In this document: piece by piece, positions 34,612 through 58,070 of the stretch
Numbering within the stretch: position 1 is the stretch's first letter
Layout of the letters: each line of letters starts with the position of its first letter
From: Coriobacteriaceae bacterium
GTDB lineage: Bacteria; Actinomycetota; Coriobacteriia; Coriobacteriales; Coriobacteriaceae
NCBI GenBank assembly: GCA_902399975.1
Contig: CABOHA010000001.1
Coordinates: 87,397 to 151,396 of the forward strand
DNA length: 64,000 bases
Direction of reading: 5' to 3'
Program-made: the position numbers and the translations under genes
Notes under the pieces: generated by a model
Seen by the model: only the letters and a program-made list of their open reading frames with translations
Told to the model about the DNA's origin: nothing
Database searches by the model: none

Positions 34612-34635
34612 GGTTTTTGAATAGGGAAGCATCAT

Positions 34636-35001: not shown

Positions 35002-35015
35002 GAGCAACTTCCCGT

Positions 35016-36778: not shown

Positions 36779-36800
36779 TCTTTAAAGGCCGGGTTTTACC

Positions 36801-36866: not shown

Positions 36867-36869
36867 AGC

Positions 36870-37025
36870 GACCACCTCCCCGGAAACTCGGGCGGGCGCG
36901 ATTCAAATCAAACGTGGCGGGGTTTCTGTTTTTGAGTAGAGGGGCTGTCGACGTGGTGATGCTTGGGTTGGCGCATGCGCACTCAAAATCGGCAACAAAA
37001 AAGCCGCCCGAAGGCGGCTATCTTG
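36870..37025. other. Left flank of the integrated element
   Basis: No gene. AGCCGCCCGAAGGCGGCT at 37002-37019 with A6 before it is a perfect terminator read on the minus strand. It sits exactly where the ancestral tRNA-Thr transcript would have ended before the element was inserted. Confidence 0.7.
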
Positions 37026-37075
37026 TGCAATGGAGCCAGCGACCGGGCTCGAACCGGTGACCCCCGCTTTACGAG
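37026..37075. repeat. attL: Left attachment site: 3' part of tRNA-Thr
   Basis: This 50-bp sequence is identical to 57990-58039, the 3' part of tRNA-Thr(CGT) from the anticodon loop to the CCA end plus five bases. The rest of the tRNA is absent here. It is the far attachment site of the integrated element. Confidence 0.92.
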
Positions 37076-37192: not shown

Positions 37193-37281
37193 ATTTCACA
37201 CTTATCGACGCTTGAAAGTGTGAAATCTTTCCATTAGGCTTGATGGCAAAGCCTTTAAAGCTTTGCCATCAAGCCTAATGG
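37193..37281. repeat. Two inverted repeats upstream of the integrase
   Basis: ATTTCACACTT/AAGTGTGAAAT form an 11-bp inverted repeat at 37193-37226. Directly after it, 37231-37252 and 37260-37281 form a perfect 22-bp inverted repeat with a 7-bp spacer (CTTTAAA). The second covers the upstream candidate starts of the integrase. They may be integrase arm sites, regulator sites or an attenuator. Confidence 0.8.
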
Positions 37282-37298
37282 AAAACCTAGTGAGGGAT

Positions 37299-38579: not shown

Positions 38580-38608
38580 AAAAAGAGGCCCCATCGGGCC
38601 TCTTTTTC
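38579..38608. terminator. Bidirectional terminator after int
   Basis: GAAAAAGAGGCCC and GGGCCTCTTTTTC form a perfect 13-bp stem around CATC, with T runs in both directions, serving the convergent genes int and 38608. Confidence 0.92.
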
Positions 38609-39372: not shown

Positions 39373-39632
39373 GATAACTCCAATCTCCATATAAGATTGT
39401 AATTCAGTTAGACGTAAAAATCTATGACGTTAGAAAATGAATTAGAAAAGAAATTAGATTAAAATCCCGAATCACCATGCGAAATAGTATAATGGCATTA
39501 GGTAATAGCCTGACCAGCTGGTCTGAAAGGAGTTATTTAATTCTCGGTCGTTGATTGAAAAGCCGCCCGCCCTTCCCTAACTAAGTTTGGCGACGAAGGG
39601 GGAGGGGCGAGCAAGCCCGAAAGGATTCTACC

Positions 39633-39887
39633 ATGATTGGAGAACCCCAACCGTACGTTGCTGTACAGGCATCATCTGCGGTTTCTTTTCGCCCCGACTT
39701 GGGGCGCGAACGCCTTCTCGGTATTTCCGACGTGAGCAAAATGACCGGACTCAGTCCGGTCACTGCATCGAAGCTCATGAAGGAGAGCGGGCACGCGATT
39801 GCGTTGCATCGCCGCGTTTTTATTCTCGAGTCGAGCCTGTTTGCCTATCTCCGTGAACTGGAGGTGAGCAGGCCGTGTCGTCTGTAA
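39633..39887 (+). CDS. Excisionase-like HTH protein
   Basis: This 84-residue protein contains a MerR/Xis-type helix-turn-helix: LLGISDVSKMTGLSPVTASKLM, whose VTASKLMKESG part is the likely recognition helix, followed by a strand pair (HRRVFILESS). It may be the recombination directionality factor or a DNA-binding cofactor. It overlaps the ATPase gene by 13 bases. A decayed relative is encoded on the opposite strand at 55768-55998. Confidence 0.7.
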   Translation: MIGEPQPYVAVQASSAVSFRPDLGRERLLGISDVSKMTGLSPVTASKLMKESGHAIALHRRVFILESSLFAYLRELEVSRPCRL

Positions 39888-40741
39888 AACCGATGAGCGA
39901 TGGCCTGGATAAGACCACGCTTGACATTCTTAACAATAAGCCGCTTGGCCATATTGAGCACCGTGTGCTCGATGCTCTTCTCGGCGGCGTGCGCCAATAT
40001 CTGTGCATCGTGCCGGGTGGCCCTGGCACTGGCAAGACTACCTTTATGCATCAAGTTGGGGATTGCTGGGCGATTGCAGGCCATCCGGTTGTAATATTCG
40101 AGGGCGAGCTCACCCGCGCGAGCATGCTCGCGAAGAGTCTGACCCGTATTACCGACGGTGGGCTTACGTATGAGGACATGTACAGTGGCGATATGTCCGT
40201 GGGAAAACGTGAGCAATTTGACAGGTCGGTCGATATCTATGCGCGCAGTATTGCCGAGCGCATGTTCATTATCTCCGGTGAAATCAAAAATGCGGGAATG
40301 CGGAAGGCAATCGAGGAGGTTGCCGATAGATATGGCGAGCCGCCACTGGTTATCGTCGATTACGCGCAAATCGTCTCTCTGCCCCAGGAGCTGCGCATTG
40401 CCGACGAGCGTGTCGGTCTCAAGCTCGTTGCATCGGAACTACGCCGCATTGTGGATGAGGTACATTGCCCACTGTTTGCAATATCGTCGATTAATCGAAC
40501 GAACTATGACAAACAGACCACCGGGCTTCAGGCCATAGGGGGCTGCAACATGTTTGAGTATTCGGCCGACATCGTCATGTCGCTCTCGATCAAGGGCGAC
40601 AGGCCCGAAGAGCGTAACGCCAACATGTTGCTCAAAAAACGGCCTGTAATTGCTTCGGTCACGAAAAATCGCTACGGCTCATGCGGTGTCGTAGAGTTCG
40701 AGTTCGATGCCCCCGCCGCGACGTTCACCGAGATCGCCTAA
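39875..40741 (+). CDS. DnaB/RecA-fold ATPase, replicative-helicase-like
   Basis: This 288-residue protein is equivalent to the C-terminal ATPase domain of DnaB-type helicases without the N-terminal primase-binding domain. Walker A is GGPGTGKTT at residues 48-56 and Walker B is PPLVIVDYAQIVS. A DnaB-like arginine/sensor region (ADERVGLKLVASELRRI) and LFAISSINRTNYDK follow. It starts with GTG at 39875, overlapping the HTH gene, so both are coupled. It probably supports element replication or is an ATP-dependent DNA-processing protein. Confidence 0.82.
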   Translation: MSSVKPMSDGLDKTTLDILNNKPLGHIEHRVLDALLGGVRQYLCIVPGGPGTGKTTFMHQVGDCWAIAGHPVVIFEGELTRASMLAKSLTRITDGGLTYEDMYSGDMSVGKREQFDRSVDIYARSIAERMFIISGEIKNAGMRKAIEEVADRYGEPPLVIVDYAQIVSLPQELRIADERVGLKLVASELRRIVDEVHCPLFAISSINRTNYDKQTTGLQAIGGCNMFEYSADIVMSLSIKGDRPEERNANMLLKKRPVIASVTKNRYGSCGVVEFEFDAPAATFTEIA

Positions 40742-41183
40742 TTATGGTGCTCGGGCCCCGTCATTGTGGCTCATGGCTCGTCAACAGCACCTCTACCACG
40801 GAAGTGTGCTTTCCGTTGACGATATAGGCATGGTCGGCGTGGGAGACGTGGGAATCCGACCAAAGCGAGTCGATGAGCCTGTGCTTCGGTAGTCGTTGTG
40901 CGCCCACGAGGAAACCATGAACCTGCGGCCGCTTTCCATGAGCGAATCGCGCAGCTTGAGGATCGAATCTGGGCGCTGACGCACCCCAGGAAGTCGCAGG
41001 ACGTTGAGGAAGGGTTGGACGACATGATTGCCGACGCCCAAGAAGTGGTGGCGGCGTGGAACGAAGATCACGCCCGTGACGCGCCGAGGCGAAATCAGGG
41101 AAAGAGCTGGTAGGGCGCACTTCCCACAAACGGAAACAAAAAAGGGAGCCAGACTAGGCTCCATGAAAGCAAAGGAGACAAAG
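40742..41183. other. Mostly non-coding or decayed 440 bp
   Basis: Only short frames are seen. The reverse strand of 40761-40890 encodes plausible protein text (HADHAYIVNGKHTSVVEVL) without a full gene, which suggests a remnant. A hairpin GGAGCC/GGCTCC lies at 41149-41166. Confidence 0.4.
40898..41113 (+). CDS. Small helical hypothetical protein, doubtful
   Basis: This 71-codon frame starts at GTG 40898 with a weak ribosome site. The residues AFHERIAQLEDRIWALTHP and GLDDMIADAQEVVAAWNED look like real helical protein, but the first ten residues do not. It may be a truncated gene whose original start is lost. Confidence 0.35.
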   Translation: MRPRGNHEPAAAFHERIAQLEDRIWALTHPRKSQDVEEGLDDMIADAQEVVAAWNEDHARDAPRRNQGKSW

Positions 41184-41702
41184 ATGGCATACGAGGACAC
41201 GCCAATCGAGATTCCGTTCTTGATTTGTACGGCTGACTCAGACCAAAGCCGGGTGGGTTTGGATTATCGCAGGGTTGATAAATTCCTTGCTGCGTTCGCC
41301 GAAAGCGATGATGCCTTTGAGTTCCAAAGAATTGCATGGAATAAAGATTCATGGGCTGGAAGTTGGTTCAACCGTAAGGAATTTATCAAGAACCCGACGG
41401 CGAAGATTCCGGAGGATTGGCCATACATGGTTCGCCGCGGTAGTGAGGTGGTCGCGGCGTTCTACGAGCGCGGCGATGCTGTGATGTTCGAAACGATACT
41501 GCGGTTCAAGCAGGATTGGAAAGACGAGCCGCACATTTGGATCGACTGCGAGGAGCGCGACCGTCGGGCTGCGCCCCCAGATGACTGGGTCGAGCACAGC
41601 GATGAATACTATGAAGCGCTGGCAGATCTAAGCGATGATTCGATTGAACCCAGCGACGAATGGTACGAAATGATGGATAACCCAACCGGGGTGTTCTTCT
41701 AG
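41184..41702 (+). CDS. Acidic hypothetical element protein (172 aa)
   Basis: This 172-residue protein is strongly acidic, rich in Asp, Glu, Trp and Tyr, for example IWIDCEERDRR and HSDEYYEALADLSDDS. There is no signal or membrane segment. Such composition is seen in DNA-mimic antirestriction proteins, but no motif proves this. AAAGGAG lies six bases before the ATG. A 22-bp perfect terminator hairpin follows at 41707. Confidence 0.65.
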   Translation: MAYEDTPIEIPFLICTADSDQSRVGLDYRRVDKFLAAFAESDDAFEFQRIAWNKDSWAGSWFNRKEFIKNPTAKIPEDWPYMVRRGSEVVAAFYERGDAVMFETILRFKQDWKDEPHIWIDCEERDRRAAPPDDWVEHSDEYYEALADLSDDSIEPSDEWYEMMDNPTGVFF

Positions 41703-42029: not shown

Positions 42030-43311
42030 TTTCCCGAGCCGAGATTCTTATAAATCAGTCCTGATTTTAGTTCTAAGTTATGATCCAGACACCAACCGAA
42101 AGCTAATTGAAAAGCATGCGGAGTGCATTGAATGGCACTCCGCTGTATTGCTATTCGTTATTATTCTTGTCATTAACGGACGAAATCAACTTTCCAACCG
42201 ACTCAAATAACTCATAATGCCGTGCAATAAAACTTCAACAGGTTTTGATTTCCTTTAATTCGAACAACGTTTTCAGTTTTAAAACCACGCTTAGATTTTA
42301 TTTTTGTGCGTGTATCAAACGGTATGCGAAGTCCATTTCTTTTCAATTTCTCCTATTCGTCCTCTAATAATTCGCAGTCAGTTCATGTTTCTAAATTGAA
42401 AGAACTTGCTTTCAGATTGCCGGTAATCACTAAATACGTAGCGGTCGCGCCGTCATTTTTCGTTGCGCGAAACCTTTTTACAAGCCTTTCAAGTTAATGC
42501 CGGAGCAACTACAAACAATGATTTCAAACCAGAACGGTAATCAAATCAGCGTCCAAATCCAATTGCTGAAACCCTTTCGACCTTACAAACAGTTTGCTGT
42601 CGCGACTTGCTGCACACCCATCAGAAACCAACCTCATACTTCCAAGCCACTCGCCGGATAGGGGAGAGCACCATCTGAAGCGGATCGCAGATCGCCGTAT
42701 TCCTCTGCCAGATGCACTCTCAAAACGCACCCATCCTCGTTGCCCGCAACCCCTCGTTAGCCCTATTCCCCATCTGTTTCTTTGTCGGACATTCATCGAG
42801 ATCCCTATGCCCTGGCAGACATTTATGTTCCCCAGCTGTGGAGTTGGCGGACATTGACCAAGCACCCATTGGCTACCTGTCAGACATTCTCCAACGTCCC
42901 AATCACATGCCAGGGGATAGCAGAATTCGCCCCGAGCAGGAGCCGATCACCCCGCAGCGCGGCCGCCTTCCCTGCGGTCAGGCGGCAGGTGCTAAATGGC
43001 CTTGCCAATTGTGGATGCCGCTGCGGCAACACCCGAACCGCCCCAAAAAAGTGCTCCAAACTACCCATAAGGCCAATTAGCACGCCAGTTTCGTTCAACG
43101 TCAGACATTAAGAATGTCAGACATTGAACCTGCGGCAAAACCGCAGCTGGGGCCACAAGTGGCCTGAAATCGCTTCGCTTCGCTCGCTCACCCCACGCGA
43201 AATGTCTGCCAGGGCTGTCAGACATTGTCAGACATTGAAAATGCCTGATCGCGCGTGGGGGAACGGACGCTCGCGAAGCTCGGTACCGGCCGTGATGATT
43301 GGAGATCAGAA
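42030..43311. other. AT-rich spacer then decamer-rich region before mobC
   Basis: No convincing gene is seen in these 1,282 bp. The first 460 bp are clearly more AT-rich than the rest of the window. A hairpin GCGGAGTGC/GCACTCCGC lies at 42125-42150. From 42784 the DNA carries repeated GTCAGACATT-like decamers. Confidence 0.6.
42784..43260. repeat. oriT: Decamer array, candidate oriT or iteron region
   Basis: Eight direct copies of G(T/G)C(A/G)GACATT lie at 42784, 42814, 42846, 42879, 43100, 43116, 43217 and 43227 (ten bases each). One inverted copy is at 43201-43210. CCCCACGCG at 43191-43199 pairs with CGCGTGGGG around the last copies. The array lies directly upstream of the MobC and relaxase genes, the usual place of oriT. 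Confidence 0.65.
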
Positions 43312-44067
43312 ATGTCAGCCATTTCGCCAGATGAACTCAACGCAACCCAAGCGCCATCCGCCGCCCAGCCCTACGCCCCGCCTGCCTGGATGCAGCCCGA
43401 CCAACAGCTCGCCGAAATGTCAGCCATTTCGCCCGACCAATCAGCCACCCGCCGCATCACGGTCCGCCTCCCGAACGCCGACCTGACAGCCCTCGACGCA
43501 CGCGCTGACGCCATCAACGCCAGCCGCAGCGAATACCTCCGCACCCTCATCGCCCTGCCCGTCACGCTCGACCTGTCGTCCATCCGCCGGGCCACCCCAG
43601 GTGTCGAGTCCATCACCCGCCCGTTCGGCCCAGAACTCGCCCTCAAGCACACCGACAGCCAAACGAATAGTTTGACCGTGCAAGCAATCACGGACAGTGC
43701 TTTGGAATCTATCTCAAACGAGATCCGATCCATCGGGGTGAACTACAACCAATCCGTCCGAGCACTCAACCGCATCCTGAAAAAATACGGCAATCACCGC
43801 TCCCTCTCGCAAGACGAGCGCATAGAAATCATCGAACTCTACGAGCGCCTTTCGAAACAGAACAAGGCGATATACGAACGCTTGAAGACACTCGCCGACC
43901 AAGTCGAGTCCTTGTCCGAGACACCGTTCGTGAATCTGACCATCGCCGCTCAACCACAGGCCCCCATCAATAAACCTGATGCCGAGCATCGCCGGCGTGT
44001 TCGCGGCAAGAAACACACCACGCCACGCGATGACCAGAACGAGGACGGAGGTGACTCGGACTCATGA
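43312..44067 (+). CDS. mobC: MobC-like relaxosome accessory protein
   Basis: This 251-residue protein has a ribbon-helix-helix DNA-binding domain (TRRITVRLPNADLTALDARA, residues about 44-80) and a downstream MobC segment with GVNYNQSVRALNRIL. Such proteins melt oriT DNA for the relaxase. The ATG at 43312 follows GGAG. The N-terminus repeats MSAISPDELN/MSAISPDQSA, and the DNA coding for it carries a diverged version of the upstream decamer (ATGTCAGCCATT). It overlaps the relaxase gene by four bases. Confidence 0.82.
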   Translation: MSAISPDELNATQAPSAAQPYAPPAWMQPDQQLAEMSAISPDQSATRRITVRLPNADLTALDARADAINASRSEYLRTLIALPVTLDLSSIRRATPGVESITRPFGPELALKHTDSQTNSLTVQAITDSALESISNEIRSIGVNYNQSVRALNRILKKYGNHRSLSQDERIEIIELYERLSKQNKAIYERLKTLADQVESLSETPFVNLTIAAQPQAPINKPDAEHRRRVRGKKHTTPRDDQNEDGGDSDS

Positions 44068-45680
44068 CATACATGAAACCGCTTTCCGGACATAGCTCCG
44101 TCAAATGGATCCGCTACTACCTCTTCAAAAACGACCGCGCCTTAGACAAGGACTTTCTCAACCTCACTGACCGCGACTGGAAGGGGAGGGACTGGGCGAA
44201 GGTAATGGACCGAACTCGAGAAATCTTCGGCAACAACGTGCCGGTCAAAAAAGATACAAAGGTCCGAACCTACGAGCATATGATCATCTCGCTGGACGAG
44301 AAGGACAATAATGTCGAGCTCGACGACTTCCGAGATTTCATAAACGAGTGGGCATCCAAATGGTTTGATTCCCGAGGCCCGGAGGGCGAGGGCATCGGCC
44401 GCTTCGAGGTGGCTATCGCTTATCACGATGACAATGCTGCCCGCGAAGCCGCCGGCAAACAGGGCATCCTCCATGCCCACATCGTCATCAACAACACCGA
44501 GCTCGAAACCAAACGTCGCATTTCCGGCTTGCTTACGACCAAGGTCGTCCAGGCGATGCGAGCCGATGTGCAGACGATGTCGCTCGAGCGCGGGTGGCAT
44601 GCCTTTGCCACCGACGGCAAGTCCTACACCCAGGCCGAGATGGATGCGAGGGGCCTGAAAGTATCCCGCGGCAAGAGGCTCGACCGCGCGATGGCGGCGC
44701 TCGACAACGTACTCGCCAACGAGGCCCGTGGCGCCCAAGTCGAGGACTATGGCGAGGCCATGCAACGCAAACTGGACGAGCGCTACCCGGTTGAGAAGCT
44801 GATTCCCGAGACATACGTGGACGATCCGACCGCTGCCCGCCAGCCAGGATCCGCCAACCCCGACCAGGGCAAGTCCGACAAAGCCACCGGCTTTTCGTAC
44901 ACCACCATGAGGATCGATGATGGCCGCACCATGCGCCTTATCGTCCCCCGCGGATTCGGGGGCTCAGATACCATGGCCGAAAGGCAGATCGAGGCCCGCG
45001 AGGGCTGGTCGTGGAAGGACGACATCCGCGACCGCGTGGACGTCGCGATGCGGATCTCGAAGAGCCCCGCCGATTTCGCATCCAAGCTCAACGAGCTCGG
45101 CATCAAGATCAACTACAACCGCGACGGCGATATCGTCTACCACCACCCGAGCGACCCCGCCGCAAGAAAGGTCAAGGGCTCGACGCTCGGCAGACGATAT
45201 GCCGCGGAATCGATAGAGCAGACGATGGCCGAGAAATACGGAAGCCGCCGCCAGCGAGCCCACAACCTACCGGGCCGCGAGCGCTGGATGACCGACGTCG
45301 AGCGTTCCGCCGCCCTTGCCATCGCCAAGGCCGCGAAGCCCTGCACCCGCGAGGGCGCACAGCTCATGGACCGCCTGAAGACGACCATTCAGCAAAACGA
45401 CTCCGCGCCGCGCGACCAGGCGGGCGGCGGCTCCGGCGTCGAGTACCCGTTCTCTCTGGCCGACTCGCTCGGCATCGAATACCCCAAGGCTTCCTCGATC
45501 GGCGACCGCTGCCGCAAGAAGATGACCGAGGATGAGGTTCTCGAGGCCATGGCGGACATTCGAGACGAGTTGGGCTACGGCGATCTTGCCGCGAACAACC
45601 CGACTGGTACTTCTTCAAACACCGGCAACTCGCACCGGCAGGAGGATGCCGCCGAAATCCAGAAATCCAGGCAACGCTAA
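44064..45680 (+). CDS. HUH relaxase for element mobilization
   Basis: This 538-residue protein nicks oriT and leads the DNA strand into a recipient. The metal-binding histidine motif is HAHIVIN (His137 and His139). The likely catalytic tyrosines are Tyr18/Tyr19 in KWIRYYLFKND. The C-terminal 300 residues are charged and probably mediate interactions. It belongs to the relaxase/mobilization nuclease superfamily; the MOB subclass is unclear. ATGA overlap with mobC indicates coupling. Confidence 0.88.
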   Translation: MTYMKPLSGHSSVKWIRYYLFKNDRALDKDFLNLTDRDWKGRDWAKVMDRTREIFGNNVPVKKDTKVRTYEHMIISLDEKDNNVELDDFRDFINEWASKWFDSRGPEGEGIGRFEVAIAYHDDNAAREAAGKQGILHAHIVINNTELETKRRISGLLTTKVVQAMRADVQTMSLERGWHAFATDGKSYTQAEMDARGLKVSRGKRLDRAMAALDNVLANEARGAQVEDYGEAMQRKLDERYPVEKLIPETYVDDPTAARQPGSANPDQGKSDKATGFSYTTMRIDDGRTMRLIVPRGFGGSDTMAERQIEAREGWSWKDDIRDRVDVAMRISKSPADFASKLNELGIKINYNRDGDIVYHHPSDPAARKVKGSTLGRRYAAESIEQTMAEKYGSRRQRAHNLPGRERWMTDVERSAALAIAKAAKPCTREGAQLMDRLKTTIQQNDSAPRDQAGGGSGVEYPFSLADSLGIEYPKASSIGDRCRKKMTEDEVLEAMADIRDELGYGDLAANNPTGTSSNTGNSHRQEDAAEIQKSRQR

Positions 45681-46568: not shown

Positions 46569-46600
46569 TTGACAAGGTGATATGGGGGGGGGGGTAGTGT
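46569..46600 (+). promoter_or_regulatory. Putative phase-variable promoter with G11 tract
   Basis: TTGACA at 46569-46574 matches the -35 consensus perfectly. TAGTGT at 46595-46600 is a plausible -10. The 20-bp spacer between them ends in 11 consecutive G (46584-46594). Loss of three G would give the optimal 17-bp spacing. A second TTGACA is at 46540-46545. The first gene of the surface operon starts at 46650. Confidence 0.6.
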
Positions 46601-46649: not shown

Positions 46650-47252
46650 TTGCAGCGTGCATGGAACATCTTTCTTGCTATATGCGTCGTGATTGCCGCC
46701 GCGCTCGCGGTAGCCTTTGCCGGCGTACGCCTTATCGGGTTAACCCCCTACGCCGTCCTTACGGGCTCCATGGAGCCCGAGCTCCCCGTCGGTTCCCTTA
46801 TCTTCGTGCGCTCCGTCGACCCTGCTGACATCCAGGTGGGCGACGACATCACCTTCAAGCTGCAATCCGGCTCCCTTGCCACCCACCAGGTGTGGAAGGT
46901 CGATACCGCAGCCCAGACGTTCTACACCCAGGGCATCGCGAACAAAGACCAGGACGGGAACATCATGCACGACGGCGCCCCCGTGGCCTGGTCGAACGTG
47001 GTGGGTTCCCCCGTTTTCTGCATCCCCTACCTGGGATACATCAACCGCTTCTGCACCACCCCGCCGGGGATGTACATCCTCGTCGCGGCGGTGGCGCTCG
47101 TGATCGCCGTGAGCATCGTGGTCGAGCTTGCGAACATGCGCCCCGAATCGGCGAAGACGGCGCCCACGGCCGCTGCGACCGCTGCCACCGAGGCCCCGGC
47201 TCCGGCGGGCGGCCATTTTCGGCGTTCCTCTGCTTCGGCAGATGATCGATAG
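46650..47252 (+). CDS. sipW: SipW-like signal peptidase I
   Basis: This 200-residue membrane enzyme is a type I signal peptidase of the archaeal/ER-like (SipW) class. The nucleophile is Ser40 in LTGSMEPEL. The catalytic-base position is His79 in LATHQVWKV rather than Lys, typical of this class. Transmembrane helices lie at about residues 5-30 and 130-152. SipW enzymes process TasA/camelysin-type precursors, three of which are encoded just downstream. The start is TTG at 46650 behind GGGAGG. Confidence 0.9.
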   Translation: MQRAWNIFLAICVVIAAALAVAFAGVRLIGLTPYAVLTGSMEPELPVGSLIFVRSVDPADIQVGDDITFKLQSGSLATHQVWKVDTAAQTFYTQGIANKDQDGNIMHDGAPVAWSNVVGSPVFCIPYLGYINRFCTTPPGMYILVAAVALVIAVSIVVELANMRPESAKTAPTAAATAATEAPAPAGGHFRRSSASADDR

Positions 47253-47313
47253 ACAGGTGTGTTCGGAAAGGGCCGCGTAAAGGCGCGACACCGATCGGGA
47301 GAAAGGAATCCAG

Positions 47314-48018
47314 ATGAACACGACAAGCAACACCAACCAGCGCAAAAAGCGCACGGGGCTCTTCGCGGCCCTGGCCCTCGTGCTCTGCGTCGCCATCGCC
47401 GGCGGCGTGTTCGCGTGGTACAGTGCGACCGCGCAGCGCACGAACACCTTTGCGAGCGGCAGCATTACGGAGCCGGATAAGAAGCCCGATCCCACGGACC
47501 CAACCATTCCCGGTAACGATAATGTCGAGGTCAAAGGTAACATCCAGGAGACCAAGTGGGTCGATAGCTCCAAGATCTCTGCGAACTCCGTCGTTGCCAA
47601 GAACCCGAACATCGGCGTGGGCAAGGGGTCCGATGACTCCTACGTGTTCGTGAAGGTCACGAACAATCTCGGTAATAACACCTACTTCACGCTGAACTCC
47701 AACTGGGCTCCCGTTTCTGACCAGGTTGTCAAATACACGGGTGCGGGATCTAACGCAAGCACCTATGTCAGCGGCATCTTCGTCTACACCGGTAAAGGGA
47801 CCGCGGCCAAGATTCTCAAGGGCGACGCTACCAAGGACGTCTACACCGGTGAGCTCTTCAGCGAGATTCACGCCAACGACTCCTTCACGGGCGTGGCCGA
47901 CAATGCCAAGACCATCGACATCAAGGCTTACTTCGGTGCCAAGTCCAGCGCCGGCGAGGAGCTGCCGCTGTCTGACATCCAGAATGCGGCCATCGCGAAG
48001 CTGAACGCGACCAACTAA
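47314..48018 (+). CDS. TasA/camelysin-like surface protein with SipW-type signal
   Basis: This 234-residue precursor has a basic N-terminus (NQRKKRTGLFA), a hydrophobic core and the SipW-dependent signal ending VFAWYSATAQRTNTFASG, followed by the mature beta-rich domain (SYVFVKVTNNLGNNTYFTL). TasA and CalY form extracellular fibres in Firmicutes. This is the likely major fibre subunit of the operon because it is the first substrate gene and has its own AAAGGA ribosome site. Confidence 0.85.
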   Translation: MNTTSNTNQRKKRTGLFAALALVLCVAIAGGVFAWYSATAQRTNTFASGSITEPDKKPDPTDPTIPGNDNVEVKGNIQETKWVDSSKISANSVVAKNPNIGVGKGSDDSYVFVKVTNNLGNNTYFTLNSNWAPVSDQVVKYTGAGSNASTYVSGIFVYTGKGTAAKILKGDATKDVYTGELFSEIHANDSFTGVADNAKTIDIKAYFGAKSSAGEELPLSDIQNAAIAKLNATN

Positions 48019-48096
48019 ATTCAGCTCTTTGCGGTCGCCCGTTCCGGCTTCACGCCGGGGCGGGCGGCTCGCCTGCTCTGAGGAAGGGGGTCTGGG

Positions 48097-48780
48097 ATGA
48101 CCGAGGAGAACGCGCGCGAAATCGATGCAGCGGCCGAGGTTGCGGACGAGGCGACCGAGACGGCCGCCTCCGCACCCGCCGCCAGCGACGCGCCGGCCGC
48201 TGCCGCCGCTCGCCGCAAGCGCACGACGCTGCTCGCCGGCCTTGCCGCCGTGGCCATCGTCGCCGTGATCTTCGCCGCCCAGACCATCTCCTTCATAGCA
48301 CGCGACCTGCCGCTTTCCACTAAGGGCACCTTCGGCACCGTGGGGCTCACGACCCAGATCAACACCGTCGACGCTTCCGGCAACGAGGTGTCCGCCCACG
48401 ACGGCGACCGCCTGGGCAACGAGACCGCCTCCGTCCAGCGCATCGTCCGCGCCGCCAACACGGGCAACCACCCGCTGTGGGTGCGCGTGCGCCTCACCCT
48501 CACGCTGACGGATGCCAACGGCAAACGCCACGACGTGAGCGACCTCCTCACCTGCTCCGGCGGCGACGACGCCTGGCAGCGCGGTGACGACGGTTACTGG
48601 TATCTGGTGAAACCGCTGACCGCCGGCGAGGCCTCCGCGGCACTCTGCCGCACCATCGGCGTGTCCGGCCCCTCGCGTTTCGGCGAGGGAACCTTCGAGC
48701 TCTCCGCGCAGGCGTACGGCGTGCAGAGCGAGCACAACGCGATGAGCGTCTGGGACGCGGAAGGGTGGCCCGAGGCATGA
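48097..48780 (+). CDS. TasA-like accessory surface protein
   Basis: This 227-residue protein has a long Ala/Glu-rich cytoplasmic N-terminus of about 45 residues, a transmembrane or signal helix (TTLLAGLAAVAIVAVIFAA) and an exported domain with VRAANTGNHPLWVRVRLTL, which is the same pattern as the camelysin-like proteins (strand containing VxVR). AGGAAGGGGG precedes the ATG. Its stop overlaps the adhesin start by four bases. It may be a minor subunit or anchor. Confidence 0.72.
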   Translation: MTEENAREIDAAAEVADEATETAASAPAASDAPAAAAARRKRTTLLAGLAAVAIVAVIFAAQTISFIARDLPLSTKGTFGTVGLTTQINTVDASGNEVSAHDGDRLGNETASVQRIVRAANTGNHPLWVRVRLTLTLTDANGKRHDVSDLLTCSGGDDAWQRGDDGYWYLVKPLTAGEASAALCRTIGVSGPSRFGEGTFELSAQAYGVQSEHNAMSVWDAEGWPEA

Positions 48781-51700
48781 GAGTCCACACGCCAAAGCAT
48801 ATGAACCGCGTGGTCGCCTTGGTCGCGGCCGCGTTACTCGTTGTCGCCGCGCTCGCCGGCGCAGCTCCGCAGCGGGCGCTCGCCAAGGGTCTGGAGGCCG
48901 GCAAGGAGGTCGGTACCGAGACCGAGCGCACCGACGTGGTCGAGATCAACAGTATCGCCGACCTCTTTCGCGAGATCGTCCTTTCACGCGAGAGCGACGA
49001 CGCCGGCGGTGACTTCTCCAACAAGAAGCTCGTCCTCACCACGGACATCGATCTTACCGACACCTCGACGAAGGATTTCAACGACGCCATCATCAAAGAG
49101 CTCGGCTCGCTCACCTTCGGTACCATCGACCATCCGTTTACCGGTGAGTTCGACGGCCAGGGCCACACTATCATCGGCCTTGACTACAGGCGAGATCTCT
49201 TTGTGCCCAAGGCCAATACCGGCCTGTTCGCGGCTACTGACGGCGCCTACATCCACGACATCAACTTCCGCGACGGCTACATCGGCGCCGACTACCGCGG
49301 CGGCTACATCGTGGGCTATTCCAAGAACACCACTATCGAGGGCGTGCACATCATCAACTGCACCTCGTCGGTGACCCCGGCGAACAACGCCGTCTCGCTC
49401 GTCACCAACGCGGGCCTGGCGGGCGGCATGGTCGTGGGCCAGTGCGAGGGCGGCGTCATCTACAACTGCGAGGTTCAGGGCGGCCGCGTGGTCTGCAGCG
49501 CCACGGCGGCCATATCGGGCCTGGGCGGCGAGGGCCTCTACCTGGGCGCCATTGCCGGCACCACCGATTACGGCACCGTGATCGAGTACTGCCGCGTGAC
49601 GCCGTACGCGTCTACGGACAAGGACGGCAACGCCACCTATTCCTACACCCAGGTGCATAACAAGTACGACATCGCCGTGGGCGCCGTGGCCGGCCAGGCC
49701 GTGTATGCCGGCGGTATCGCGGGTGGCATCAACAACGGCACGCAGATCATGGACTGCTTCTCCACCGCCGACTGCTACTGCTACACGGGCACCTACGTGT
49801 CGGTGGGCGCGGGTAACGTGAGCTATGTGGGCGGCATCGCGGCGCGCGCCAACTTGGGCGCCGAGCCCAAGTACAAGAAGAACGTCATCGAGCGCGTGCA
49901 CTATGCGGGCAACCTCCACTCCATGCAGTACAACGCGGTGCTCGTGATTCCTATCATCCAGTACGACGTGAACCTGTCGGGCATCGTCGAGCGTACGAGC
50001 GGCGACGACGAGATCGAGGTCCACGACGCGTACTTCAACTACTCGGCCACCAAGGACCTCCGCAGCGGGCGCACCATCATGGCGTACGGCGATCACGCGT
50101 CGGGTGAGGACTACGGTCCGGCCGACGACCACTACACCGACCGCACGTGGTGGGAGGGGCGCAACTTCGACTTCGAGGGCGACGCCGAGCGCTCGTCTAC
50201 GTATATGAGCGGCAAGAAGCACGTGAACAAGTGGACGATGGACTTTGTGAACGACATGCCGGTACACGGCGTGAGCGTGAAGGCCACGCTTGACTTTCCC
50301 GGCGCGGGTTCGGTGACCTTTGGCACGTCGAAGTTAGTGCCGGAGGTGTCTGACGAGCAGACGACCAGCGATCCCTATAACTTCGCGGTTCAGGGCGTGC
50401 TGCCGAGCGATACCGACCTGTCGCTCACCGAGGCGCTGTCCGAGCGCGAGAGCTGGAAGAACGTGCATGACGAGGCCAATGCCGGCTTCCGCTTCATGGG
50501 CTGGTACAAACAGGAGAACGTGAAGGTTAACCACATCGGCGAGGACCACAGCTACTTTGCGGGCATCACGGGCAGCACCGACAAGAAGCTCGGCACGGAC
50601 GCCGAGCTCAAGCTGCACAACAGCGGTACCGGCGTGTGGGATGACGCCGCGTACAAGGACAACGATCTCTTCGTGGCCTACTACCAGGCGCAGGTGCTCT
50701 TCCACGACGTGAGGGGTTTGCAGGTCAATACCAAGGGCGAGGCCAGCACGGACACCTCCGATGACTGGTATGACTACCAGGCGAAGCTGCCCAGCGTTTC
50801 CGAGCCGGCGGCGGACAGGGCCGCGAACGGCGTGGATAAGGATGCCACGTTCCTCGGCTGGACCACGATGCCGAGCGCGGTCGGCGGCGGCTACGCGGCC
50901 GTGACCTCCACCGAACTGCAGGCCATGAAGAGCGCCGGCGCCTTCTACCAGGGCGGCGAGGTCATCGAGAGCCCCATGGACCTCTACCCGGTCTACGCGA
51001 CCTACGGGTCGAACATCATCACGCAATTCGAGGGTTGGGATCTGAACGGCGCCACCGACCAGACCCTGCGCGATGGCGTGGGCACCACGAGCATCACCAA
51101 GACCGATAGCGGCTACGTGATCGCGGCGAAGGGCGCGGGCGAGAACGGTGCCTTCCCCGACGGCTACCACTTCCGCGGCTGGTATCACGTGGTGAATGGC
51201 AAGGAGTACAAGGTCTCCAACGACCCGGAGTACACCATTCCCGCGAGCTTGGATCTCACGCAGAGGCAGACGTACATCGCCCGCCTCGAGTACCGGGTGG
51301 AGTACTACGCCTATTCGAAGGCCAGCGGTAAGTTCCAGTACGACAAGGTCCAGACGGAGTGGGTCAACTACCAGTGGGGCTTCACGCAGAGCCATGCGAA
51401 ATCGATTGCTCCGGATAACAATAAGCAGTTCATCCTGCATTGGTCTGCCGGCCCGAAGGACGACGGCGAATGCGATGACGACTCCGATGCCATCGTCGAT
51501 GGGTTCCAGGTGACCGAGCCGCTGAAGGCATACGGGCATTGGAAGGATAATAGCAGCTACAACATTGTTATCAGAAGCGACTTCCCTCTGGCTGCCGCGC
51601 TCGAACATAATGGGACGGGCTCTGTTAGCGGTTATACGGTCAAAGCGAGCGTTCATAGCGGCTACACGTTCATCGCATGGGCGGGCCAGGGCGGTAATGT

Positions 51701-54257
51701 GGGTTGGAAAGAAGTCAACGCCGGCGCTTCCTGGAAAACCTCGGGTGCGCATGACGCCGGTCTCTACATCTATGAAGCCCACCTTGCCGCGCGGGTCGCG
51801 TTCCACGATGCGAACGGCAACAAGCTGAGCTTTGGGAATCGCGCGTATTCCAAGAACGGCACCACGGAACTCGATGCCGGCGAGAAGGACTACGTCGAGC
51901 GCCTGCTGGACGAGAAGGTTCTGCTCGATGCCGATCAGGCCAAGGCCTATACCTATCCGCTTGACGGCAAAACGGACACCGGCATCGTCCATGTGAGCGC
52001 AGCCTCGCCGACCGCTGACAAAGTGGCCGTCAAGACGGACGACGCGAACACCGCCTACACGTTCCTCGGTTGGATCGACCACAACGCTATCGACGCGGGT
52101 CAGATGGCGCAGGACGAGTGGGACTACGTGTTCGACGCGGGCGACAACACGACGAAATACATCACCTCCGACGCCGCAAAGGCCAAGCCCTACCTTGTGA
52201 AGGCGACCGACACGGTTTCGCGGTCGATGGACCTGTATCCGGTCTACATGAAGACGGCCTTTTCCGCCACCACCAACATCAAGCGGGCGGGCGTGACGGC
52301 GAGCTCCGGTCTGAACGTGCCAGCCGACCCCGCGGGGAAGATGAGCGATGCCGACAAGGACGGCAAGCGCACCGTGACCCTCACAGCCGATGCGTCCACC
52401 AGACTCTCCGCCGACAGCGACGGGCTCTACGAGCTGATGTCGTGGACGGTCGAACGCTCCGACGGCGCGACCGAGACCATCACGACGGCGGGTGACGCCG
52501 CGGTGTCCAACGACAACACGGTGCTGACCTACACGCTGCTGCCGGGTTACACCTATGTCTTCGTGGCCAACTACCAGCCGTTCGCGGTGGTGTACCACAC
52601 CAATACCGGTAAGACCAAGGTGACCGCGCGCAACGACGGCGACGCGCTGGGCGATGCCCCGACGTCCGAGTTCGACATCGACGCGATCGACCGGGCCGAG
52701 AGCTCGGCAGGCTCCGCCAAGATGCACCTCTTCGTGGGCTGGACCGCCACGGCTCCCGCGGACACCTCGCGCGAGTACGCGCTGTGGCGCGACGGCGGCG
52801 ATACCGGTCCCGCGCTTGCGCAAGCTACCACGGTGGTACACAGTTCTATGGAGCTCTGGCCGGTCTACCGTCCGACCACGGTGAGCGTGAACTCCAACAT
52901 CGACAGCCAGCTGGCCAATCCGTCCGCGATCCGCAGCCTGAAGCGCGTGGGCGATGACGGCTCTCGCGCGGCGCTTTCGGCATCCGCTTCCGACGTGGAC
53001 GGGTACCAGTTCGTCGGCTGGTACAAGGGCTATTCCAGCGATGCGGACCGCGGCACCAAGGTGACGTCGTCCGATACCTATACGCTGTCTGCCGACGAGC
53101 CGTTCTCGACCACGGTCTACACCGCTGTGTACGAGAGGGTATACGACGTGCGCTACCACGGCACAGACGGCAAGGTGCTCTACACCGTGAAGGTGAAGGC
53201 ATCCGACAACCGTTCCTTCGTGCAGACGGTGAAGGACGACAAGGGTAACGACGTCGAGACGATGATCGATTACGAGCCCTACCAGGAGATCGCGAACCAG
53301 CTCGACAAGGCCAATGCCGCCGACGGGGCCGCCACGCAGGAGATCTTCGCGGCGTGGCAGTGGATCTCGATGGATCGGGCGCTGCCGTACGGCTGGGATG
53401 AGTTCAAGAACAAGACGATTACCGGCGACATGGACATCTATCCCGTGACGTATCGGTTCACGGCCATGGACGACGCCGGCGGCGCCGCGACCGGTGACTA
53501 CACTTCCAAGCTCTCGTGGCAGATCTCGGGCGATCCCACCGCCGCGACGGACGATGCCGAGGGCGTGCACGTGGGCTTTAAGGGACTCTACCGGGGCATG
53601 AAGCTGACCGTGCACATGGACAAGGTGAGCTACGAGCCACCTGAGGTGGGCACGGGTATCGTCGGTAGTGCGGTCGAAGCGAATGCGAGCGCCGTGAACG
53701 GTGTGAAGGTCGGCCTGTACGACTCCCCGAGCATCGGCTCCGGTGGCACGGCGAACAAGATCGACGTGGAGACCACGGGCGATACGACCAAGGGCTTCAG
53801 CGCCGGCGACGCGGTCTTCACCTTCGATACAGCCGGTGAACTCACCATCTCCAAGGAGGCGCCGGCCGAGGCCGCGGGCTCCGTGGTGAGCTTCGTCGTC
53901 ACCGAGTGCAAGGACGCTTCCGGCGCGACGGCCGATGGCGCCCGGTCCATCACGGTGAGCGCCGAGCTTGCGGCGAACGCTGACGGGACCGCGGCCGTGG
54001 CTACCGTCAAGGTCCGCGCGCCCTTCGGTTACTACAAGGTTGAGGAGAACACCTGGGCCTGGCGGTTCACTCCGAGTTATACCGTGCAGGATCGCACTAC
54101 CGGCACGTGGGCTGCAGGCAACGTGGCCACGGTCTTCACCAAGGGCGAGGTCAAGGTGACCAACACCGTCTCGAACAGCAAGTGGGGTTCCGGCGAGGCG
54201 CGTGCCCAGAACATCTTCGAGGGCACGTCGGCGACCGCGAAGGGCGGTGACAAGTGA
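48777..54257 (+). CDS. Giant repeat adhesin of the surface operon
   Basis: This protein of about 1,826 residues has a signal peptide (MNRVVALVAAALLVVAALAG, cleaved near RALA). Residues about 100-390 form a beta-helix-like region with GLUG-type repeats (GGYIVGYSKNTTIEG, GGIAGGINNGTQIMD). Residues about 520-1600 hold at least eight diverged InlB/Flg_new-type units of the form F-x-GW ... M-D-LYPVY (for example FLGWTTMPS and MDLYPVYAT). The C-terminal 200 residues resemble Cna-like beta domains. There is no LPxTG or membrane anchor, so it must be held by other subunits. Overlaps at both ends (ATGA, TGATG) show tight coupling. Confidence 0.85.
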   Translation: MRVHTPKHMNRVVALVAAALLVVAALAGAAPQRALAKGLEAGKEVGTETERTDVVEINSIADLFREIVLSRESDDAGGDFSNKKLVLTTDIDLTDTSTKDFNDAIIKELGSLTFGTIDHPFTGEFDGQGHTIIGLDYRRDLFVPKANTGLFAATDGAYIHDINFRDGYIGADYRGGYIVGYSKNTTIEGVHIINCTSSVTPANNAVSLVTNAGLAGGMVVGQCEGGVIYNCEVQGGRVVCSATAAISGLGGEGLYLGAIAGTTDYGTVIEYCRVTPYASTDKDGNATYSYTQVHNKYDIAVGAVAGQAVYAGGIAGGINNGTQIMDCFSTADCYCYTGTYVSVGAGNVSYVGGIAARANLGAEPKYKKNVIERVHYAGNLHSMQYNAVLVIPIIQYDVNLSGIVERTSGDDEIEVHDAYFNYSATKDLRSGRTIMAYGDHASGEDYGPADDHYTDRTWWEGRNFDFEGDAERSSTYMSGKKHVNKWTMDFVNDMPVHGVSVKATLDFPGAGSVTFGTSKLVPEVSDEQTTSDPYNFAVQGVLPSDTDLSLTEALSERESWKNVHDEANAGFRFMGWYKQENVKVNHIGEDHSYFAGITGSTDKKLGTDAELKLHNSGTGVWDDAAYKDNDLFVAYYQAQVLFHDVRGLQVNTKGEASTDTSDDWYDYQAKLPSVSEPAADRAANGVDKDATFLGWTTMPSAVGGGYAAVTSTELQAMKSAGAFYQGGEVIESPMDLYPVYATYGSNIITQFEGWDLNGATDQTLRDGVGTTSITKTDSGYVIAAKGAGENGAFPDGYHFRGWYHVVNGKEYKVSNDPEYTIPASLDLTQRQTYIARLEYRVEYYAYSKASGKFQYDKVQTEWVNYQWGFTQSHAKSIAPDNNKQFILHWSAGPKDDGECDDDSDAIVDGFQVTEPLKAYGHWKDNSSYNIVIRSDFPLAAALEHNGTGSVSGYTVKASVHSGYTFIAWAGQGGNVGWKEVNAGASWKTSGAHDAGLYIYEAHLAARVAFHDANGNKLSFGNRAYSKNGTTELDAGEKDYVERLLDEKVLLDADQAKAYTYPLDGKTDTGIVHVSAASPTADKVAVKTDDANTAYTFLGWIDHNAIDAGQMAQDEWDYVFDAGDNTTKYITSDAAKAKPYLVKATDTVSRSMDLYPVYMKTAFSATTNIKRAGVTASSGLNVPADPAGKMSDADKDGKRTVTLTADASTRLSADSDGLYELMSWTVERSDGATETITTAGDAAVSNDNTVLTYTLLPGYTYVFVANYQPFAVVYHTNTGKTKVTARNDGDALGDAPTSEFDIDAIDRAESSAGSAKMHLFVGWTATAPADTSREYALWRDGGDTGPALAQATTVVHSSMELWPVYRPTTVSVNSNIDSQLANPSAIRSLKRVGDDGSRAALSASASDVDGYQFVGWYKGYSSDADRGTKVTSSDTYTLSADEPFSTTVYTAVYERVYDVRYHGTDGKVLYTVKVKASDNRSFVQTVKDDKGNDVETMIDYEPYQEIANQLDKANAADGAATQEIFAAWQWISMDRALPYGWDEFKNKTITGDMDIYPVTYRFTAMDDAGGAATGDYTSKLSWQISGDPTAATDDAEGVHVGFKGLYRGMKLTVHMDKVSYEPPEVGTGIVGSAVEANASAVNGVKVGLYDSPSIGSGGTANKIDVETTGDTTKGFSAGDAVFTFDTAGELTISKEAPAEAAGSVVSFVVTECKDASGATADGARSITVSAELAANADGTAAVATVKVRAPFGYYKVEENTWAWRFTPSYTVQDRTTGTWAAGNVATVFTKGEVKVTNTVSNSKWGSGEARAQNIFEGTSATAKGGDK

Positions 54258-54994
54258 TGACTGGTTTCAAGCAGTCTGAGCATCAGGGGGCGCCGCGCCA
54301 TATGGCAGTGCCGAAGGCGCGCGGTGTCGCACGGGCTTCCTCGGCTCATACGGCGCGCGGACCACGCGTCCCGCGCGGCCGGAGGGTCGACTTGCCCGTG
54401 CTGACGGCCTGCGCGGTCGTGCTCGTGCTGGCGGCGGCCGGTGGCATGTTCGCCTGGTACATGCACCAGGCGTCGCGTACCAACACCTTCCAGTCCGCCG
54501 AGCTCGTACCTTCGGTGGAGGAGAACTTCGACAAGACGACCAAGTCCAACGTGACCGTGAAGGCCAACGACACAAGCGTGCCGGTGTACATACGGGCTCA
54601 GGTAGCGATCGGCTGGGTGACGAGCGACGGTGCGGACGCTATCTTCGCCGAGCCGGTTGCGGGCACGGACTATGTGATGGCGTGGGGCGCGGCCGTGTAC
54701 GAGCGCGGTTCGGTGAGCGCCGAACAGCTCTCCGCCGGTTGCTGGGTCAAGGGCTCGGACGGCTTCTATTACTGGTCCAAGCCGGTGCAGGCGGGGAAGT
54801 CCACGGGCCAGCTTGTTGACACCTGCACGTGGAAGAGCGTGAGCGGCGCGGCCGACGGACGCAAGTTGTCGGTGGACATCTCGGCTCAGGCGCTGCAGGC
54901 CGATACCGATCCCGCGGCGTTCGATGACGCGTGGAGTGCGGCGAGCGGTTTGAAGGTTGGGAACGACGGCGTCTTGGCGGTGAGCAACTCATGA
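54257..54994 (+). CDS. TasA-like accessory protein after the adhesin
   Basis: This 245-residue protein has a basic cytoplasmic segment of about 50 residues, a hydrophobic signal with the SipW-type ending GGMFAWYMHQASRTNTFQSA, and an exported domain (VPVYIRAQVAIGWVTSDG). The WYxxxxxRTNTF match to the protein at 47314 shows both are substrates of the same signal peptidase. The ATG overlaps the adhesin stop. It is probably a minor fibre or linker subunit. Confidence 0.8.
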   Translation: MTGFKQSEHQGAPRHMAVPKARGVARASSAHTARGPRVPRGRRVDLPVLTACAVVLVLAAAGGMFAWYMHQASRTNTFQSAELVPSVEENFDKTTKSNVTVKANDTSVPVYIRAQVAIGWVTSDGADAIFAEPVAGTDYVMAWGAAVYERGSVSAEQLSAGCWVKGSDGFYYWSKPVQAGKSTGQLVDTCTWKSVSGAADGRKLSVDISAQALQADTDPAAFDDAWSAASGLKVGNDGVLAVSNS

Positions 54995-55710
54995 GAAAGT
55001 CTCGTCTCCTGTCGATCGTCCTTGCGGGGGCGCTGGCGCTGGCGGCGGTCGCGGTCATGGCTGCCGGGTTCGCGGCTTCGCCGCAGACTGCCTACGCCGA
55101 TGGCGAATCGGAACCCGCGGTCATCTACGATGCTCAGGACAAGAAGCTGTACGGTGAGGGCATCAGCGAGTCCCAGCTGGCCGAGGCGTTCTCAGACATG
55201 GTGCCGGGCGATACGCATTCGTTCACGTTTATGCTGCGTGCCGAGCATTTATCCGGCGCGGCAACGTTCTACCTCGCTTCCGACTTCACGGACGAGGTAG
55301 AGGACCTGCTCGAGGGCGCGCAGGTGAGTGTGGATGTTGACGGCTCGCGTGCGGGTGAGGGTGTGGTCGGTGAGCAGGACGCGCTGACCCAGGGCGTAAA
55401 GCTCATCATGCTGAAGGGCGACGGCACCGCCAGTGTTACCATCAACGTGACCCTGCCGACGTCTGCCGGGAATGAGACCATGGGTCGCACGCTTCCCCTC
55501 GACTGGTTGATCACCGTGGCGGATGAGAGCGACTTGGGCGGCGGGTCGACGGACGGCTCCGGCGGTGCCGAGTCGAGCAAGCCTTCAGCCCAGGGATCTC
55601 TGGGCAAGCTTCTGCCGAAGACCGGCGATGAGTCCCTGATGCCCATCGCGGTGGCTGTCTGCTGCGGTGCCATCGTGCTCGCCGCCGGCCTCGCCCTCTC
55701 CAAGCGCTAA
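54991..55710 (+). CDS. LPKTG-anchored surface protein
   Basis: This 239-residue protein has a classical signal peptide (cleavage near TAYA), an exported beta-rich domain (HSFTFMLRAEHLSGAATFYL) and a complete sortase signal: LPKTGDE, a hydrophobic helix and the tail SKR. It is the only covalently anchored product of the operon and may tether the fibre or adhesin to the wall. No sortase gene is present in the element, so a chromosomal sortase must act. ATGA overlap with the previous gene. Confidence 0.88.
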   Translation: MRKSRLLSIVLAGALALAAVAVMAAGFAASPQTAYADGESEPAVIYDAQDKKLYGEGISESQLAEAFSDMVPGDTHSFTFMLRAEHLSGAATFYLASDFTDEVEDLLEGAQVSVDVDGSRAGEGVVGEQDALTQGVKLIMLKGDGTASVTINVTLPTSAGNETMGRTLPLDWLITVADESDLGGGSTDGSGGAESSKPSAQGSLGKLLPKTGDESLMPIAVAVCCGAIVLAAGLALSKR

Positions 55711-56834: not shown

Positions 56835-57525
56835 ATGGACCCGAACGAGAAGACCGACCAGTCCGCAATTGTTATCTGAGTTACCACCTGCCAGGGCGCG
56901 TCCTTCGAGACCTACCGCGCCGACCCGGACGCGGGTGCCGAAATCCCCCTGCCGCTGACACCCGCCGAACTCGAAGACAAGCTCGCACGCGAAGCCGCCC
57001 GCGAAGGGGTTAAACCGAAGTCCCTGCGCCTCTGTGCATGGAAATACCTCGGCCGCTTCGCGCCCCTCGAGTGGCTCCCCCTCGATGAGTTCGGCACCGC
57101 TGGGGGACGCGAACCTGCTCGCAGCTGCGGTCAAGCGCGACCCCGAAATCGACTGCGGCGTCCTCTTCCAGTACTGCGACCTCCGCGAGATCTACGGTCC
57201 GCTCGAATACCTCAACGTCGCTCTCCAGTACGATGACCTACCGTATCGCAAGTGGTCGTCCCCGCTCGACTTCAACGAGATCGGCATTGACGGCCTGACC
57301 CCGCATGAGGCGTGCGCCCTCCAGCTCGGCTGGGAACTGGCGGGCGGGAACACCACGCGCGACCGCGGCGATATGTCCGTCGCGGAACTCATAGAGCTTG
57401 GAGAGAGCGAGACGGAAGATCGGGAATTGGTTGTCTGGCGATGGGGCTTCATGGCCTCCTACGAGGGCGAAATAGACACCGCAAAGTATTCCAAAGACCA
57501 AATCCTCACGATATTGTTCCCATAA
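56835..57525 (+). pseudogene. Element gene broken by TGA and a G-run frameshift
   Basis: From ATG 56835 (GAGGAAGAGGTT upstream) the frame reads MDPNEKTDQSAIVI, TGA at 56877, then VTTCQGASFETYRADPDAG and WKYLGRFAPLEWLPLDEFG. At the five-G run near 57100 the frame shifts by +1 into NLLAAAVKRDPEIDCGV and GPLEYLNVALQYDDLPY to the stop at 57525. Removing one G restores one continuous protein of about 230 residues. I do not recognise the family; an antirestriction-type role is possible but unproven. Confidence 0.7.
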
Positions 57526-57949
57526 CATCTAGATTGCCAGCCAATTAAGGACGGCGCCGCGAAGGCCGCGCGCCTGAAGGCCAACGCCGACCTGATGGCT
57601 TCGCTCTTTAAGCACTGAAAAAAAGTACGGTTATCTATATACGAGGGCCATGCACCGTTGATGGTAATAATCCATGGTACGTGGCCCTAATTGCTGTTTG
57701 CGGCCAATAGAAGCAATGCCGTCTGACTCGGTTCGAATGATGCCGGGGTCAACTTCATTCATCGATGCGGTCCCATCCGCGTATCCTCGGCAGAAAGTGG
57801 GCTGGAGCGCGTTGCGTGGTGTCTGGTGCCTGGATGCTATGCCATGAGTTATGTAGGCGCTGTGTAACCGGAATTAAGCGTGAAATTGATTAAAAAAAGA
57901 TTTCACCTCTTTTTCACTCCTCAGGGAATGAGAAAAAGGACGAGTCAAA
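57526..57949. other. Gene-free right end of the element
   Basis: The first 90 bp encode a gene-end-like tail (AARLKANADLMASLFKH and stop at 57618), probably the relic of a truncated gene. The remainder shows no coding frame, promoter or repeat that I can support. Confidence 0.45.
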
Positions 57950-57982
57950 GAAAAAGCTCAGAAGCAATTATGCTTCTGAGCT
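57950..57982 (-). terminator. Element-supplied terminator for tRNA-Thr
   Basis: AGCTCAGAAGCA and TGCTTCTGAGCT form a 12-bp stem, followed on the minus strand by TTTTTCTTTG. It replaces the ancestral terminator now stranded at 37002-37019. Confidence 0.85.
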
Positions 57983-57989
57983 GCACTAA

Positions 57990-58039
57990 TGCAATGGAGC
58001 CAGCGACCGGGCTCGAACCGGTGACCCCCGCTTTACGAG
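57990..58039. repeat. attR: Right attachment site within tRNA-Thr
   Basis: This 50-bp sequence is identical to 37026-37075. It covers the 3' half of the tRNA gene from the anticodon loop outward, so the tRNA is rebuilt after integration. Confidence 0.92.
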
Positions 58040-58070
58040 AGCGGTGCTCTACCAACTGAGCTACGCTGGC
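57995..58070 (-). tRNA. tRNA-Thr (anticodon CGT)
   Basis: The 76-nt cloverleaf is complete: acceptor GCCAGCG/CGCTGGC, D arm GCTC...GAGC, anticodon stem CCGCT/AGCGG with loop CTCGTAA (anticodon CGT), T arm ACCGG TTCGAGC CCGGT, and an encoded CCA. It reads ACG threonine codons and is the integration target of the element. Confidence 0.96.

Follow-up and report, generated by a model that had tools for sequence, protein, structure and literature searches.

The window analysed here, a stretch of 64,000 nucleotides (64 kb) from contig CABOHA010000001.1 of a Coriobacteriaceae bacterium, carries a conserved operon of six genes (A to F) of the SipW/TasA type within an element inserted at a tRNA-Thr gene. 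The operon may build a fibre that is anchored in the cell wall, bears a giant, adhesive-looking protein at its tip, mounts this tip through a donor-strand-like tail and is switched by a poly-G tract. The probability of this reading as a whole is put at about 0.45.

Content and conservation of the operon

All six open reading frames (ORFs) lie on the + strand between 46650 and 55710, in the order that a preliminary description of this DNA had given, with overlaps at C/D (ATGA, 48777-48780), D/E (GTGATG, 54254-54259) and E/F (ATGA, 54991-54994). Gene A (46650-47252), whose position as first gene is conserved, encodes a SipW-type signal peptidase that scores 84 bits with TIGR02228, over the cut-off, and 69 bits with the SipW model NF046067, under its cut-off of 190; the family models put it with signal peptidases of the SipW/archaeal kind, and it stands beside its SipW-type substrates. 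B (47314-48018) is a SipW substrate and putative fibre subunit, with a SipW-type signal (TIGR04088, 21.8 bits against a cut-off of 19) that is also matched by 12 of 13 B homologs (E <= 0.01). The proposed pairing of a SipW-type peptidase with SipW-type substrates is thus borne out by two models over cut-off, TIGR02228 for A and TIGR04088 for B.

The BsaA family model TIGR04090 matches all 15 homologs of E (54254-54994) at E <= 0.01, the best at 1e-13, and gives 31 bits for the window copy. Judged by its sequence, E resembles BsaA and should work like it, yet it is not filed as a member because 31 bits lies below the curated 60-bit cut-off. C (48097-48780), which has a membrane signal, gave no useful match when scanned alone against the family models; profile comparison relates it to E at 99.4%, and TIGR04090 is matched by 9 of 15 C homologs (E <= 0.01). 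B and E have their signal and first strand in common (97.8% over 45 columns by profile comparison). The SipW-type signal is therefore over cut-off in B, recognizable in E through its profile match with B, and divergent in C.

The giant protein is D (48777-54257). Its ORF spans 48765-54257, and the ATG at 48777 gives 1826 residues, the same length as the database copy P0001. Inspection by eye finds an ordinary signal peptide at the N-terminus and no sorting signal, so the giant does lack an anchor, as had been suggested. GLUG and InlB-type repeats had also been ascribed to it. These models pass their cut-offs in four of the five D proteins scanned, the exception being the window copy, in which the repeats are barely detected (PF09479, 21 bits, cut-off 27). 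F (54991-55710; ORF 54931-55710, with the ATG at 54991 giving 239 residues, as in P0121) is an LPKTG protein. Profile searches against solved structures with alignments of E, B, C, F and the terminal domain of D returned chance-like rows only.

Of 396 genomes of the class, 17 hold a relative of D, and 15 of the 17 loci concerned have the same neighbouring genes in an unchanged order, a recurrence beyond chance, so that a search of other genomes for this gene set, as the preliminary description had proposed, does recover it. Of these 15, 11 are whole; sipW is truncated in one (L029), and contig ends cut off three (L032, L033, L039). The other two loci, L040 (G232) and L041 (G190), show a partial match to the N-terminal region of D only, have no operon and are excluded from later counts; G330 is the contig of L001 and is counted once. 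Slackia and Paraeggerthella are among the D carriers, and near full-length homologs of D are also found in Eggerthella lenta. Of 246 class genomes, 13 have a SipW of the close clade (E up to 1e-27), and every one of them also carries D; SipW matches beyond this clade drop to about 40% identity. D found no match in viral contigs or plasmids, and the E and B alignments found none in viral contigs.

Two loci have a large ORF directly upstream of sipW (L027:3457-5685 and L038:16092-19355, which share about 39% identity). In L027 this ORF closes with an LPXTG-like signal, 4 bp short of sipW, with a G12 run 2.55 kb upstream; in this locus the operon may start with an additional surface protein.

A donor-strand-like tail on the giant protein

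The mature N-termini of B and E carry the pattern W-x8-N-x-F in all 28 homologs (B 13/13, E 15/15). In the TasA fibre, according to the available text of PMC9674648, the donor strand comprises residues 28-38 and makes contacts through F29, I32 and F39, and the spacing in the confirmed TasA sequence matches W-x8-N-x-F. A form of the pattern is found in 11 of 15 C homologs and is absent from the window C, in which the donor motif is divergent. It recurs at the opposite end of D. The C-terminal domain of D (53655-54182, +) is followed by the tail WGSGEARAQNIF (54183-54218, +), and this tail has the spacing of the N-termini of the SipW substrates, that is, of the donor-strand region of TasA, a likeness read from the sequences that is new here.

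The extent of the motif was followed in 135 D rows, made up of the best 120 of 993 matches plus the locus rows. W-x8-N-x-[FW] lies within the last 60 residues in 130 of them, the strict motif occurs elsewhere in D not once in 247,677 residues, and in the remaining five rows Y or H replaces W, or L replaces F. As the rows hold duplicates (window/P0001, L001/P0003), 25 representatives at 70% identity form a fairer set; the relaxed motif is present in all 25 and the strict one in 21. Scored with a matrix built from B only, the tail takes first rank in 123 of the 135 rows, and with a matrix from B and E in 117; in the window D it shares first rank with residues 580-591, and it misses the top three in L028 and L037. 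The fairest figure is that of a register test, because the sequences share ancestry and the motif had been seen before testing: among 1,751 registers the tail is the best against the B profile (12.5, second 5.7) and against the E profile (10.7, second 7.9), with z 5.7. No such tail was found in ORFs of at least 400 residues in 26 other SipW-/BsaA-like loci, a weak control because few of those loci show clear SipW-type substrates.

These figures bear on another explanation, in which the operon is a matrix operon of the SipW/BsaA type, the giant is secreted or held in some other way, the tail belongs, as a conserved part, to the terminal domain of the giant itself, and F is a wall protein whose beta-sandwich is a common one. 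It gains from the fact that the AlphaFold model made for the final 221 residues of D is unusable (predicted local distance difference test, pLDDT, 41.9; two sequences); the model was not used as evidence. What argues against it here is that the tail comes out as the best of all registers for both donor profiles and that it sits beyond the invariant Asn of the terminal domain. That domain has one Lys, one Glu and one Asn that are invariant in 40 sequences and also in a set of 11, and it is weakly isopeptide-pilin-like: FctA, DUF7601 and DUF5979 are each matched in 4 of 11 homologs, or, with SpaA included, such weak matches are found in 3-4 of 11, and the window copy matches none of the four.

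The wall protein and the proposed fibre

F is the only one of the six gene products with a sorting signal. Its LPKTGD motif (55612-55629, +) falls within an LPXTG anchor recognized by TIGR01167 (16.2 bits against 15.9), and T-x-D of the motif is retained in all 13 F proteins compared, none of which has the donor motif. Fold prediction, which covered F and the last 221 residues of D, gives F a TasA-like fold, again new here: ranks 1-8 in VIA-align are taken by CanA, TasA, Hyper2, bundling-pilus and cannula subunits. A TasA-like fold is thus seen, by prediction, for F, while E and C match TIGR04090 under the cut-off or only in homologs. The suggestion that the LPKTG protein tethers the structure to the wall is sharpened by this fold, and F would be a putative wall base. 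F is the last gene in all 14 loci that reach that far. It is longer in L037:9267-11117 (616 residues) and L038:4175-6181 (668 residues), where an extra domain precedes the sorting motif.

F also weighs on the explanation by a matrix operon. That no profile link joins F to E or C is in its favour, as is the report that BsaA polymers of Clostridium perfringens do not depend on a sortase and are for the most part extracellular (PMC7395162, available part). Filament subunits as the top fold matches of F, and the constant place of F at the end of the operon, speak against it, as does the tail. This explanation is rather unlikely, and it is the more substantial of the two alternatives for the structure as a whole. 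The other would be a sortase-assembled pilus, in which a pilus sortase links D, whose terminal domain is isopeptide-like, to F, with B, C and E in accessory roles. It could draw on the weak FctA, DUF7601 and SpaA matches of D, on the sorting motif of F and on the sortase domains found in all 16 genomes searched (14 over cut-off). There is no sortase among the six genes, however, and in the 15 carriers searched the coordinates place none close to the operon; D lacks a sorting signal, and the features of B and E are SipW-type rather than sortase-type. A sortase-assembled pilus is accordingly improbable.

The fibre with a wall-anchored base and a mounted giant would be put together as follows; gene order, motifs, conservation and the element are observed and the fold of F is predicted, while processing, assembly, polarity, adhesion and switching are inferred. 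SipW would cleave the SipW-type signals of B, E and probably C, and cleavage would free W-x8-N-x-F N-termini to act as donor strands, by analogy with the TasA fibre. A host sortase would attach F to the wall, where F, having no donor motif of its own, would accept the first donor strand. B, E and C, each donating and accepting, would form the shaft. D would be exported by ordinary Sec transport and, with the W-x8-N-x-F tail at its C-terminus, would fill the last open groove as a donor-only tip. A point of doubt is that, with its strand in the groove, the body of D would lie on the side opposite to that of a normal subunit.

Taken as a new architecture, this would be a TasA-type donor-strand fibre with a sortase-anchored, acceptor-only base of TasA fold and, as donor-only tip, a giant adhesin of about 1,800 residues whose C-terminus imitates the N-terminal donor strand of the subunits; it would be phase-variable through slippage in a poly-G promoter, spread over Coriobacteriia and now and then picked up by mobilizable elements. 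Novelty in all these respects is advanced tentatively, as something rather short of an even chance. If true, Collinsella, Slackia and Eggerthella possess a fibre with base, shaft and tip, there is a simple rule for mounting an anchorless giant protein, the state of the switch could be read by sequencing strains or stool, and TasA-type fibres extend from matrix polymers to tipped, wall-anchored organelles.

The poly-G tract upstream of sipW

A run of 11 G (46584-46594) ends 55 bases before the start codon of sipW and is the sole homopolymer of at least 8 in the window. It closes the 20-nt spacer of a putative phase-variable promoter (46569-46600, +) between TTGACA (46569-46574) and TAGTGT (46595-46600). 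In 10 of 16 loci, the window included, the 400 bp before sipW contain a run of at least 9 G, which suggests phase variation, a proposal made from sequence and new here. Gain or loss of G between the -35-like and -10-like hexamers would alter their spacing and hence expression. In the same loci, such runs number 10 in 6,157 bp upstream of sipW against 4 in 310,688 bp elsewhere, and 43 other loci hold 7 in 769,378 bp; these counts include kin loci, which are not independent.

That the tract merely belongs to the sequence of the 5' region, perhaps with a structural or regulatory role, and switches nothing is possible if somewhat doubtful. Several observations lean that way and weigh against a switch: the spacer in the window is 20 nt long and the -10 hexamer matches in three of six positions, a promoter scan of the window did not list the poly-G promoter, L026 has no tract, and the tract is interrupted in L034 and L038. 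It is more distant in L027 and L031, and L037 offers only about 157 bp of sequence upstream of sipW. In favour of the switch stand the strong enrichment of poly-G upstream of sipW across genera, the tract lengths of 9, 11, 9, 9 and 10 G when five congeneric genomes are aligned, and the arrangement in L001, L034, L038 and L039, where the tract starts at TTGACG and a -10-like hexamer follows 17-18 nt on, across a G-rich spacer.

In L031 (G109) the poly-G promoter context lies about 3.9 kb upstream of sipW, about 3.6 kb further than in its congeners, and the arrangement looks like DNA inserted between promoter and operon.

Comparison with known systems

No description of this operon was found in the literature searched, which lacked most subscription papers and bioRxiv preprints; within that literature, the earlier statement that no named system has this gene order holds. 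The comparisons that follow rest on partial texts of the cited papers. The tapA-sipW-tasA operon of Bacillus subtilis likewise places a SipW-type peptidase beside its substrates (PMC9674648, PMC10151520). Its TasA has an N-terminal donor-strand segment whose spacing matches that of B and E (PMC9674648), and TapA is donor-only, as proposed for D, although the strand is N-terminal in TapA and C-terminal in D (PMC10151520). No giant, no LPXTG base of TasA fold and no poly-G promoter are reported for that system in the available parts of PMC9674648 and PMC10151520.

The sipW-bsaABCRSD operon of C. perfringens also begins with sipW, encodes a BsaA-family protein (compare E and, by profile, C) and has secreted accessory proteins in a single operon, as here (PMC7395162). 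It differs in having its own two-component genes and another gene order, and the available part of PMC7395162 names no giant or LPXTG gene. The pili of Bifidobacterium breve are a surface organelle of a gut actinobacterium with G-tract-dependent expression (PMC9187656). Their tract lies inside the first gene, whereas here it lies upstream of sipW, probably in a promoter spacer; and they are sortase-dependent (PMC9187656), whereas no pilus sortase is present here. Among database proteins, an InlB B-repeat-containing protein of Eggerthella lenta is a near full-length homolog of D at about 41% identity, named from its repeat type only, with no operon or function in the name.

The element and the origin of the operon copy

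In the window the operon lies in an integrative element, as seen from its integrase, its attachment (att) repeats and an empty site in relatives. A perfect 50-bp repeat bounds 20,964 bp, its left copy (attL) at 37026-37075 and its right copy (attR) at 57990-58039, the latter within and just beside tRNA-Thr(CGT) (57995-58070, -), the integration site. The operon is preceded, all on the + strand, by a tyrosine integrase (37263-38579; PF00589, 66.9 bits; PHROG integrase), a DnaB-like helicase-domain protein (39875-40741; PF03796, 75 bits), a MobC/NikA-like accessory protein (43255-44067; PF19514, 22 bits, under the cut-off of 27.5) and a MobA/VirD2-like relaxase (44064-45680; PF03432, 28.2 bits against 24.6), which has an 83% identical relative in G101. 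No full set of conjugation genes was seen among the element ORFs scanned, a subset of all its ORFs. Cluster P0001, which holds the window's D, represents 189 member sequences; the P0001 contig measures 20,974 bp, close to the length of the element, and perhaps ends at the att repeats or is a circular form.

Nine regions of eight congeneric genomes, selected for matching, were fetched for comparison. In five, both flanks meet at the 50-bp site with no element between them; in three (L075, L076 and L080, the left end of L076 being cut by the extent of the fetched stretch) a sibling element occupies the same tRNA-Thr with different cargo; and in one the MobC-relaxase module is found at another location. 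In the siblings the integrase-helicase DNA is about 81% identical to that of the window and the integrase 91-93% identical. Carriage on a mobilizable element had been claimed from the window alone and is supported by the att repeats, integrase, relaxase and MobC-like protein, together with the empty site in five relatives.

The further claim of a transferable cassette does not hold as a rule: 9 of 15 operon loci have chromosomal neighbours in common with their kin, and the three siblings carry other cargo. Six congeneric copies have a common downstream gene, 0.3-0.7 kb away in five and 5.4 kb away in L032, and three Slackia-type loci have upstream genes in common; L026, L027, L035, L036, L037 and L038 have no neighbours in common with other loci. 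No tRNA was found in the 15 fetched relative loci of 16-25 kb. The operon as a mobile cassette in general was rejected on the last result and on the nine chromosomal settings, and the preliminary interpretation taken whole is partly supported.

The window copy of the operon looks acquired rather than of its genus's usual lineage, because the chromosomal setting is common to kin in nine loci and because of its placement in the D tree. That tree, built from 31 rows by a quick method and with the window on a long branch, groups the window first with P0002 and next with copies from G274 (same genus) and G162 (another family); six other congeneric copies form a group that does not include it. The SipW tree resolves the place of the window only so far as to set it apart from three congeneric copies. 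The right flank of the window aligns at 94.5%, over 52% of the query, with a record of Collinsella aerofaciens, which makes Collinsella or a near relative the probable host.

The ORFs at 38608-39390, 41028-41702 and 57034-57525 found no named match in phage and defence libraries; the first is retained in the sibling elements at 57-80% identity, as are the 100 bp adjoining attR (57890-57990). The sibling cargo includes ORFs that look, by sequence, like an ATP-binding cassette (ABC) transporter and a radical S-adenosylmethionine (radical-SAM) enzyme, possibly a cluster for a peptide product. DNA to the left of attL (35694-36943 or 34630-36914, depending on the relative) is absent from the empty-site relatives, through either a second insertion or a loss.

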